Assembly: GCF_032854445.1 (NCBI RefSeq) | Contig: NC_088304.1 | Location: 6,831,704 to 6,895,703, forward strand | Direction of reading: 5' to 3' | DNA from: Liolophura sinensis | Taxonomy: Eukaryota > Mollusca > Polyplacophora > Chitonida > Chitonidae | DNA: 64,000 nt | In this document: in pieces, positions 4,801 to 10,800 of the stretch | How the letters are laid out: every line of letters begins with the position of its first letter | Numbering within the stretch: the stretch's first letter is position 1 | The notes under the pieces: generated by a model | The model's database searches: none | What the model was told of the DNA's origin: nothing | Seen by the model: the letters and a program-made list of their open reading frames with translations, nothing else | Program-made: the position numbers and the translations under genes

Positions 4801-7800
4801 TGAAAAATGTATGGAATGTTGTCAGCGAATGATGGAAACCTTGTTACCATTACATTATAATGATGAATCCAAATTTGTTGTCAGACAGCTTAACATTTTC
4901 TCTGATGTAAACTATAATCAGAATGTCTGAAATATCCCACTTCCATCCACCAACATTTCCAAAAATAAAAGAAAGAAAACTAAGAAAATCTAAAGAAAAT
5001 GGCAGGATGCCATGTTGCTTGATTTGGCTTCATACAGAATGTTTTATGGGCCATCTGTGATTTGCTTTTATTGCACTGTTGGTACTTTCGCTTTGATGTG
5101 ATGTGCACTGATTGCAATACTGGTACATTTGGTTTGAATGGAAAAATGTAGCAATAAGAAGAGAAGTACAGAGTACATGAAAATCCATTATTGCATTAAG
5201 TACCTGCATGAGAGTAATTATTATGAAAATGTTTATCAAACTGTAATTAACTTAAGCATTCACAAGTTTAGATGATAGGGAAGATGTATGCTAAGTTTCA
5301 CGGAAATAGGTTCAGTACTTCAGGAAGAGATGCATGAGCAAAATCTGAATACGTGGAAAAGCACTACTGCGCAAAGACTTAAATGGAGGTAATTATGAAA
5401 AATAATTACCCAATTCCCATTAAACTTAAGCATGCTACATTCAGATGACAGGTAAAGATGTATGGTAAGTTTCATCAATAAGAGCGCAGTAGTTCAGGAG
5501 AAAATGCATGGACAAAATATGAATACATGGAAAGCACTATTATGTAATTGGGCTAATTATGAAGAAGCTCATATGACGTGAAATCAGCGCAGTAGTTCAG
5601 GAGAAAATGCATGGACAAAATATGAATACATGGAAAGCACTATTATGTAATTGGGCTAATTATGAAGTAGCTCATATGACGTGAAATCAGCGCAGTAGTT
5701 TGGGAGGAAACGCATGGACAAAATATGAATACATGGAAAGCACTATTATGTAATGGGGCTAACTATGAACAAGTTCATATGACGTGAAATCAGCACAGTA
5801 GTTTGGGAGGAAACGCATGGACAAAATATGAATACATGGAAAGCACTATTATGTAATGGGGCTAACTATGAACAAGTTCATATGACGTGAAATCAGCACA
5901 GTAGTTTGGGAGGAAACGCATGGACAAAATATGAATACATGGAAAGCACTATTATGTAATGGGGCTAATTATGAAGAAGCTCATATGACATGTGAAATCA
6001 GCGCAGTAGTTTGGGAGGAAACGCATGGACAAAATATGAATACATGGAAAGCACTATTATGTAATGGGGCTAATTATGAAGAAGCTCATATGACATGTGA
6101 AATCAGCACAGTAGTTTGGGAGGAAACGCATGGACAAAATATGAATACATGGAAAGCACTATTATGTAATGGGGCTAACTATGAACAAGTTCATATGACA
6201 TGTGAAATCAGCGCAGTAGTTTGGGAGGAAACGCATGGACAAAATATGAATACATGGAAAGCACAATTATGTAATGGGGCTAATTATGAAAAAGTTCATT
6301 TTGAAATCAGCGCAGTAGTTTGGGAGGAGACCCATGGACAAAATCGGACGGCCGGCCGTCAAGTACACCTCCCCCTGCCAAACTCCAGCTAGCTTTGTTG
6401 AGGGTATAAAGATTTCACAAAAATACAACAAATTACCTTCCATTGGAGACTGTTCATGTCATAGATGTTATAAAACTATACCAAATTACCTTCTATATGT
6501 TATAAAACTATAATTACTTTCCAGATGTTATAAAACTATACCAAATTACCTTCTAGATGTTATAAAACTATACCAAATTACCTTCCACTGGAGACTGTTC
6601 ATGTCATAGATGTTATAAAACTCCTCCCTGGTAATGGCACCACATTTACTCGTGTTCAGGGCTTTGAACAACAGGTATGTATCCCGTCTACCTGGCAAAG
6701 GTAACACAAAACATTTCTAATTAACACAAAACACTGAGCATGAGCACATGAACTAGAAAAAGGCCATTTGCTTCACCCAAAATGGAGGCGATTTTCAACA
6801 CACAAGTTGACAAAAAATCTCTTTCTTGTATGTTTTTTTTTCTTTTTTTAACCTTAATTTTTAAACCTTAATTTATCAATTAATTATTAATTTATGTCAA
6901 AATCTTCAAGTTTCTAATTCACAGAAGCCAAATGACATGCTCTCATTAAAATAATTCACTACAATTCCTTTGTTTGCTTTACATACAATCCGACACTTGG
7001 CTGCACCTTTACGTCAGGAAGGTAACTTACAGTCAGAAATTACAACTGAATCGGCCTGCTTTAAGTATATACAATCAACCCAAGCTTAACGTTAAGTGCA
7101 AATACTTGCTTTAGGCAGCGTGTTAGTTAGAAATTTTTGAACTCCGATGAAAGTGTCACACTTTAAAGATCAAAGTTGCTTCTTAAATTGTTACTTACTT
7201 TTACGAGGTGAAAAATACTTCAACATTCCAGAGAAATGCTTCATACTGATTCTTGAACACTGAAACAAGACAGAAATATACATGTACTCGTTTCATACTG
7301 ATTCTTGAACACTGAAACAAGACAATAATATACATATACTTGTTTCATACTGATTCTTGAACACTGAAACAAGACAATAATATACATGTACTTGTTTCAT
7401 ACTGATTCTTGAAGACTGAAACAAGACACAAAATATATATGTACTCGTTTCATACTGATTCTTGAACACTGAAACAAGACAGAATAAATTAATACCCTAC
7501 TTGGTTCATGCTGATTATTGAAGAATTAAATGAGACAAAAACATACTCTTCCATTTGGATTCTTCATACAGAAAAGATTAATGTGTAATAGCCAATTCCT
7601 AAAAAGCTTCTCCATTTCCTACAGAAACTGAGGGTATAGTTGACCATAATGATATGAAGGACATCTTTTAAGACCACCCTAATTCCTTAACCTTTTCATT
7701 TATGAATGAGCAATTTTCAGTGCAATTTATGTACATTTTTAATTTAATTTTGGAGACAAAACTACATTGGTTGGACTAGCCAATTTCGGCGCTTCACAAA

Positions 7801-10800
7801 ACGTATAATTTTTTCATTCTACTCAAAATAATGTCTTCAGAATATGCTTGAATAAGCACCTTGCAACCATGCAAAAGGATTAAAGAATTACATGTGTACA
7901 GTACCTGTACCTGTAACATGATGGTTCAAATGCATTTATGATGAATAGCACTATTTAAGCCCCACACCTTAACAGTTCTGCAAGGCAAAATTTGCGACGA
8001 TGTGATGCTATAATGTTTCTTCTGACATTAAGTCAGGAAGATATGATCAGACAAGTATGGACCGGCCCGGATAGCACAGTTGGTAGAGCGTCCGCTTCGG
8101 GATCGGTAGATCCAGGATCAATCCTAGATCAAGTCACACCTAAGACTTTAAAAGAGGAAGTTGTAACTTCCTCGCTTGGCGTTCAGCATGAAGGGGATAG
8201 TGCAACGACTGGTTGACCCGTATCAGTATAATGGCTCGGGCGGGGCGGCTTACTTGCCTTCGGTAAGTCATCTCAGTGAAGCAGCACTAAATAAAAGAGC
8301 GGTGAAAATCTGTCCTGCAACAAGGAGGCACATTACACGTACATGCACCCTAATGATTCCTTCGTCGTCATATGACTGAAAAATTGTTGAGTACGACGTT
8401 AAACCCCAAGCACTCACTCACTCAGGCAAGTATGAACGTCAGCTTAGAAAGTGAATTAAGTAACAGTATTATCATTATTAACGATTACACTTTCTGAATA
8501 TAGCACACATTCTAGTGCTGATATTTGGCTTGAGACCACTGCGGGTTTCGAACCAGCGACCTCAGAGTCGGGCACCAAATCGCCAGCAATGCATGTCAAC
8601 CATCTAGACCACTCAATCAACAGGCTTTCCACTAAAATAGAAGGTAGCTGAACTGTAGACTTTAAAGCGAACATGCATTACCCCTCTGATGATCACAAAT
8701 AACATCTACTCCCTCAGGTGAATATATCAGACACATATGAACGTCAAGTTTAGAAAGTGAATTAAGTAACAGTATTATCGTTATTAGAGATTATAATTTC
8801 TGAATATAGCAGTGGTCTCAGCCAAATATCAGCACTAGAATCTGTGCTAGATTCAGAAAGTGTAATCCCCAATAACGATAATACTGTTAGGAGGATATGA
8901 TGTCTAGTAAGGCAACTGTGATCAAATGCCATCAAAACCATTTGAACATACAGCACCATTTGTGGTTTAATATGTACGTCAGCAATGGATGATGCCAGGT
9001 CTTCAAGGCAGAGGCAAAAATCACATAAATACCTTAAACTAATCAAGCTGTATTAAAACTATAACAAGCAATCTAAACAAAAATATGATACAACTGACAA
9101 TATCATCCATATAGCTCGCAGACAACATCATTTTGATATGTACTTAATGGAAAAAACAAAAGTTTCCACAAACATTTGCAGAACCATTTATTTATTATGT
9201 TTTGAATACAGCCGTGATGAATGATACAACAGTAAGCCTCACCCCTTTTCTGACCAGCAGTTTAAAGGCATGCTCACACCCCTGTCTCTTGTGGAAGAAC
9301 AACTGTTTTAACTTCTTCTTCTCCAGGCCTGTGAATGTATCATACACCACTGCCAGCAGCTAAAAGTGAAAAATACACCATGGACGATTAGCGAGGACTT
9401 TACGCACATTTCTTTCTTTTTTTCTTTCATTACAGATTTTTATAAACACGCAGCCAACAACTTCATTTATTCTTTCCCTCGTATATTTTTTCCAGAATAC
9501 AAAGTGGCTTCATTGTTCTTACTCATGAAATTGACATGATTTACAAGAGTGGGTTAACACAAAAAATACATTTCAGAAATTGTGGCGATACTGGGACCTG
9601 ACATACATGTCAAACGCTAAAGGGAAGCAGGTCTTAAAATACACTGTCGACATGAGAAACCAACATATTCATTTATTTATCTGATTGGTGTTTTGTGCCA
9701 TCATCACGAACATTTCACTCATAAGGCAACCAGAAACTTAGACAGCCCGTGAGAAAACCACGACCATCAATCGGTTGCTGTCAGACATTCCCACGTACGA
9801 CCGGTGAGGAAGTGAGCATGTGCTCGACTTGAACTCACAGTGACTCCTGAAAACCAATATATACACATAAATCTTGGTCTACAGTGAACAACAGAGCTTG
9901 CAGTATCTATTTGTTCTGTTTTCTTGTTTACTTTTCAACTCTTATAGGGAACTACTGTGTTGAAAACTGAACACAGCTTTGGACAATCTCACTGAACGTC
10001 TTACCAGATTCATGAGAAAGTAAAGCTCCAGGGAGAGGTAGACCACAAAGAAAATAGCGTACCACCGGTTGACTGAGAACGCTGGCATCATCACATCGGG
10101 GTAACTACAATGTCAAAAGACAACATTAACGCATGCGTAAAATCCACACCTGTAAGACAACTTCAGTACAGAGACATAGATGTCTGGTTATATCCACGAT
10201 GCATGATTTCAGTTACCTGCCTTGATACCACTAATGAGTGATGCCTTCATCATTTCAACAACAGCATATTCATTTCACATAACAACTGAACAATACATTT
10301 ATGTTTACACATTACATGTGCATCATTGTTAGTATGGCAATTTATTGATGACAACAATCAGATTTCAATTTTCTCATGAACTGTACGTAAGATCACCTAA
10401 GAGGATCTACCAGTTACTAACGGCTCACTGCCACCAAGGCTCCGTAAGACCAGCTTCCCTGTCTGTGGCTGGAAGTGAATCAACACACTTTTGCCGTTTC
10501 CAATGATTCAAAGTTCACTTATTTATCGAATTATTTTATGCTGTACTCAAGAATATTCACTTTCAGGACGGCGGTCAGCATTATGGTGGGTGGAAACCAG
10601 GCAGAGCCCGGGAGAAACCTGCGCTCATCCACAGGTTGCTGGCAGACCTTCAGACGTACGTCCGGAGAGGAAGCCAGCATGACCTGCACTTTAACTCACA
10701 GCGACTGCAATGGTCAGAGGCTCCAGAGTCTTTGTTTTGCAATAATCCCTGATTCATACATTTATTTCATGTAGTATTTCAACTGAGCTCTCATTTAATA

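Follow-up and report, generated by a model that had tools for sequence, protein, structure and literature searches.

Tandem copies of a splice acceptor beside a TPC1 exon of the chiton Liolophura sinensis: a mirage minisatellite with counterparts at other exon edges

How is the correct 3′ splice site of an exon found when it stands at the end of a row of near-identical copies of itself? The choice made by the spliceosome among equal sites is usually studied with built constructs. In the 64,000-nucleotide stretch of DNA analysed here (the window), one short exon of a TPC1 gene is bordered by just such a row, and this array, together with a row of about 43 acceptors at a myosin-head exon, offers a natural test of splice-site choice. 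The sites within an array are locally alike, so the choice among them must stem from position or from the exon.

The gene was identified as TPC1 in an earlier note on this DNA, and the identification is upheld by a conceptual product of 129 amino acids, assembled from four exons, that aligns over its full length with mouse TPC1 (6c96; 1.7e-39). The short exon (exon 10 in the numbering of that note) lies on the minus strand at 7199–7259, is 61 nt long, encodes 20 residues plus one nucleotide and has the donor GTAAGT, read from 7198 downwards. Beside it, at 7240–7481, are five copies of a 52–53 bp unit in which the 3′ splice site is intact; TRF (period 52 bp, 4.6 copies, 94% matches) delimits the same interval. 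The unit, read on the minus strand, contains a 33-nt core composed of the last 13 nt of the intron and the first 20 nt of the exon, which is found exactly at 7240, 7292, 7344 and 7449 and with one mismatch at 7396, giving spacings of 52, 52, 52 and 53. TRF and core matching thus both confirm the five-fold repetition originally described, of a unit holding the acceptor and some 20 first bases of the exon, and the inclusion of the exon start in the unit. In the intact copies the intron-like part ends TGTCTTGTTTCAG and the exon-like part begins TGTTCAAGAATCAGTATGAA, with one base altered in one copy. Beyond a divergent spacer lies a sixth, worn copy of the core (7505–7537) that has seven mismatches and has lost its AG, leaving the AG in five of the six copies, the real one counted. 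The array is therefore present where it was first reported, at 7241–7530, with its bounds corrected to 7240–7481 for the intact part and to 7537 for the end of the worn copy. No further site with 11 or fewer mismatches to the 33-nt core was found on either strand of the whole window, and a genome-wide search for the array elsewhere, unlinked to the exon, returned its own locus as the single match; this search ignores very common words, and diverged copies could escape it.

In order of transcription the worn copy (7537–7505) comes first and the five intact copies follow, the last of which alone continues into the exon body (7199–7259). This exon-proximal copy (7240–7291) carries the frame-keeping acceptor, with its AG at 7260–7261, and the first 20 exon bases. 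The other four are decoys: from exon-like starts at 7311 (copy 2, 7292–7343), 7363 (copy 3, 7344–7395), 7415 (copy 4, 7396–7448) and 7468 (copy 5, 7449–7504), they would add 52, 104, 156 and 209 nt, respectively. When the preceding exon was joined in silico to each acceptor in turn, the exon-proximal acceptor alone stayed open through the next exon, and all four intact decoys ran into a stop. The sequence thus bears out the claim that four decoy acceptors precede the frame-keeping one. The claim that they break the frame is true in its outcome, a stop in every case, but not in every detail: the third decoy, at 156 nt, keeps the frame and yet meets an in-frame TGA. Transcripts carrying such stops are predicted to be degraded by nonsense-mediated decay. 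The spliceosome would, judging from the order of the sites, encounter these decoys and reject them.

The upstream exon (exon 9; 9243–9359, minus strand) has no local copies of its edges that we could find. The next exon (exon 11; 6582–6691, minus strand) presents the mirror case. Its donor, GTAATT at 6576–6581, heads a donor-side array that occupies 6431–6581 on the minus strand, 3′ of the exon, and the exon end plus GTAATT is present five times, the real one included (6576–6581, 6544–6549, 6512–6517, 6484–6489 and 6431–6436). Of the four additional copies, the outermost has its full length and the other three, nearer the exon, are truncated. When the four adjacent exons of the TPC1 neighbourhood were compared with their own flanks, two of the eight edges were thus found to be copied locally. 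The outermost donor-array copy (6437–6475, minus strand) differs from the real exon end by one silent base, leaving all 13 encoded residues unchanged, and, being bordered by TATAG and GTAATT, could in principle serve as a 39-nt in-frame extra exon. Just past the donor array, the TPC1 intron also holds a 103-bp tandem array of 8.3 copies (95% match) at 5483–6344.

Arrays of this kind have a precedent. In amphioxus, so-called mirage minisatellites have been described in Adh3, the globin genes BflGb6 and BflGb9, PGBD5 and TnC, in accounts that report them without disturbance of splicing (PMC3087553, PMC3902484). As those accounts present them, and as in the chiton, the tandem duplication takes in an exon–intron boundary, which may be that of a 3′ or of a 5′ splice site, AG or GT persists in many of the copies and correct splicing of the gene is still expected (PMC3087553, PMC3902484). 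The TPC1 acceptor array has the structure by which mirages are recognised: its unit spans the boundary (taking in the last 13 intronic and the first 20 exonic nucleotides, in five intact copies), its copies carry the splice signal (AG in 5/6) and the unit length of 52–53 bp falls within the 10–160 bp given for amphioxus (PMC3087553, PMC3902484). The host is not a cephalochordate, as is evident from eight matches to molluscan haemocyanin domains in the genome, but the assignment stands and the range alone changes, because cephalochordates, in which mirages were first observed, are no part of the structure's definition. We conclude that the chiton TPC1 array is, in its structure, a real mirage minisatellite.

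The chiton case departs from the amphioxus ones in that its host is a mollusc, in that a rate can be given (9/270 exon edges, see below) and in that one array reaches about 43 copies. Two further systems are related. Minisatellites across exon–intron boundaries can also add splice sites in human duplicated genes, although there the search was for altered transcript structure between recent paralogues, and some of the repeats form new introns (PMC2812944), whereas in the chiton the exon-proximal site appears to be kept. In polyubiquitin genes, likewise, tandem repetition makes a row of equivalent splice sites, but the repeats as described are coding and each site is dual-specific, acting as donor or acceptor (PMC10809524); those of the chiton are intronic, with one type of site per array. 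No report of a mirage from any mollusc was found in the literature searched, mostly freely available papers, and the text portions covered of a comparative chiton genome paper (PMC12005716) hold no such arrays under the words tandem, minisatellite, splice or intron. As far as these searches reach, neither a molluscan mirage nor a frequency among sampled exons had been reported before.

That rate comes from a survey of 135 exons (270 edges) drawn from HMM matches to three protein families, with 65 of 132 kinesin, 30 of 81 myosin-head and 40 of 110 ion-transport matches being taken. Selection was by short open frames and preceded any look at the flanks, matches with many stops or long frames being excluded, and each edge, which is the end of an HMM match rather than a mapped junction, was compared with its surroundings in flanks of 400 nt. 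An edge score of 18 or more was reached at 11/270 edges and at 0/270 in locally shuffled sequence, where the maximum was 17. On inspection, eight of the 11 arrays contain the splice site, and three (L056, L107 and L106, all scoring above 18) stop before it and were not counted; L099 (score 13), whose array likewise falls short of the splice site, was also left out. A ninth array, L100, scores 16, short of the cut-off (18) and also of the highest shuffled score (17), and was counted on the strength of TRF and inspection (7.5 copies with the donor). Arrays spanning the splice site are accordingly found at 9/270 edges, in 9/135 exons, a lower bound, since inspection below 18 was confined to L099 and L100. 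A cruder TRF criterion, that an array cover at least 8 nt on both sides of the match edge, gives 8/270, namely seven of the nine plus L107, and misses L104 and L100.

Four of the nine are acceptor arrays: L036 (64 bp unit, 11.8 copies), L104 (32 bp, 42.9 copies), L125 (86 bp, at least 5.6 copies) and L133 (55 bp, at least 7.9 copies). The remaining five are donor arrays: L095 (66 bp, 8.1 copies), L057 (63 bp, 17.2 copies), L100 (32 bp, 7.5 copies), L151 (154 bp, at least 3.6 copies) and L126 (92 bp, 4.2 copies). The copy numbers of L125, L133 and L151 are lower bounds because these arrays run beyond the fetched stretch. L125 and L126, 10 kb apart on the same strand, probably belong to one gene. 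The myosin-head exon at L104 (with L117) is preceded by some 43 repeats of a 32-bp unit reading TGCTGTGTTTGTAG and then GTTTGAGCG. The survey is small, but it suggests that splice-site arrays at exon edges are not rare in the chiton genome, and by this sample the TPC1 array is one of many. That it is a singular feature is not borne out, in view of the donor array on the next TPC1 exon, the nine sampled edges and what the amphioxus papers relate of the same kind of array (PMC3087553, PMC3902484). Were the rate of 9/270 to hold genome-wide, an extrapolation, there would be some 3,000 such arrays per 100,000 exon edges, an abundance that, if true, would be relevant to gene prediction in the chiton genome.

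The arrays can be set against the general load of tandem repeats around the sampled matches. Repeats with a period of at least 10 cover 13–15% of bases 200–400 nt outside the matches, 9% at 50–100 nt and 4.4% in the first 10 nt outside, with 3.4% in the first 10 nt inside. Exon edges thus have between a third and a quarter of the cover found 200–400 nt away, and over the sampled matches and their flanks cover does not peak at the edge but rises smoothly outwards. Mirages resemble the part of a general intronic repeat load that reaches the exons, a load that becomes sparser towards them but does not disappear. Since cover is reduced at the edges, the arrays there may carry a cost; the thinning may reflect a cost to splicing, or simply the need to keep coding bases.

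Because edge arrays carry near-identical sites, splicing must choose one among several. Across 11 arrays (the nine sampled and the two of TPC1) we counted 128 decoys, 115 of them with an intact AG or GT; these counts take in half-unit matches (at L095 and L126) as well as some eight units of another array close by at L104, omit one of the four donor copies at the next TPC1 exon and use codon phases set by eye from the match frames. Not one of the 115 intact decoys would preserve the frame and at the same time avoid a stop, although chance alone predicts few, making this a consequence rather than a test. In 10 of the 11 arrays the adjoining intron contains sequences identical to the real motif, taken as 13 nt at acceptors and 9 nt at donors: 44 at L104, 16 at L095, six at L100, four in the TPC1 acceptor array, three each at L126, L133 and the TPC1 donor array, two at L151 and one each at L125 and L057 (the latter against 16 decoys counted). 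At L036 no decoy is identical to the real 13-nt motif, and seven have one mismatch. Local motif strength is therefore not the whole answer.

In acceptor arrays the site that preserves the frame closes the row, and in donor arrays it opens it. Were the first site transcribed also the first used, acceptor arrays should be spliced at the wrong site and donor arrays at the right one; recognition of the exon predicts the exon-proximal site in both, and it is the latter rule that the position of the frame-keeping site fits better. From this arrangement, and from the presence of several decoys whose splice motif matches the real one exactly, we infer that site choice most likely stems from recognition of the exon as a unit, which would draw on signals within the exon body and on pairing with the splice site at its other end. 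Public RNA-seq data exist for Liolophura sinensis, so site choice can be answered without new experiments.

On our preferred reading, to which we give a probability of roughly 0.83, the TPC1 array is a mirage minisatellite in which tandem growth across the boundary has been tolerated through choice of the exon-proximal site. The structure of the acceptor array is certain; how it arose, that splicing uses its exon-proximal site and why it should do so are reconstructed. A tandem duplication of about 52 bp over the intron end and the 20-odd first exon bases would have placed a second acceptor inside the intron, and further copies of the unit would then have been added to the row. Splicing would pick the exon-proximal copy, the sole one that leaves the protein intact, and the array would be tolerated for that reason. 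Against this reading, use of the decoys could be sizeable, the reduced repeat cover at exon edges hints at a cost, and L036 and L057 depart from the other arrays in how few of their decoys match the real motif exactly.

The decoys might instead be put to use. It is conceivable, if unlikely, that thousands of chiton exons bear such rows of sites, that the decoys are partly used and that array copy number, in TPC1 as elsewhere, acts as a heritable dial of output via stop-bearing transcripts. A rival reading, in which frequent use of poison acceptors yields stop-bearing transcripts that are degraded, copy number tuning the amount of TPC1, is improbable. It would account for the stop met from each of the four decoys, for the local identity of decoy and real acceptor over 13 nt and for the unaltered 33-nt core in three of the four intact decoys. 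Against it, like arrays occur at 9/270 edges of unrelated genes, which argues for a general process rather than regulation of one gene, and aberrant mRNA was reportedly not found in amphioxus (PMC3087553, PMC3902484). Nor does the splice core of the TPC1 acceptor array change significantly more slowly than the rest of the unit (8/95 versus 22/165 differences, p 0.31). Pooled over eight arrays (all but the TPC1 donor array, L151 and L057, the last of which had too few chained units) the figures are 55/1509 and 199/2488, a signal that comes from L104: by subtraction, the pool without it gives 49/711 versus 156/1942, a small difference. Purifying selection on the decoy splice motifs, which the pooled figures alone might suggest, was rejected on these grounds. 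At L104 itself the core varies far less than the rest of the unit (6/798 versus 43/546), unlike the other arrays.

A second alternative to tolerated growth with exon-proximal site choice is that RNA structure hides the decoys, in a predicted nine-pair hairpin over the decoy AG whose arms would be CTTGTTTCA (intron end) and TGAAACRAG (end of the exon-like part), the real copy being without the full second arm. Modelled folds of single units do form the hairpin for each of the four decoys but not for the real copy, and in a 150-nt folding window the real TTTCAG is predicted to be more open (0.166 against a decoy mean of 0.047). The difference is gone in an 80-nt window (0.245 against 0.220), however, the fold of the whole array pairs the tract of the real copy as much as those of the decoys, and over the 11 arrays the real site lies above the decoy median in five (80 nt) or six (150 nt). 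Suggested by single-unit folds and not upheld across the arrays, masking of this kind is highly improbable.

Although tandem arrays are a known cause of assembly error, an artefact or collapsed haplotypes can hardly be credited here, given that the five copies carry differing spacers, that nine more such arrays occur in other genes and that the array, of about 300 bp, is short beside the HiFi reads described for the assembly (mean length 8,347 bp, 14x; PMC11068029). That assembly, as its description has it, was purged of duplicates to one haplotype (PMC11068029), and its species has been corrected by the authors to Liolophura sinensis (PMC12441733).

Other repeats lie near the TPC1 exons. A 90-bp tandem array of 17.8 copies enters the window from its edge (1–1594) and is open for more than 330 codons on both strands; it lies about 150 nt from a TPC1-like exon and makes no contact with it. 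The stretch at 8063–8430 opens with GATAGCACAGTTGGTAGAGCG, in the manner of what we take to be a tRNA-derived short interspersed element, and closes with CACTCACTCACTCA; a start resembling it is also seen in the intron of L100.
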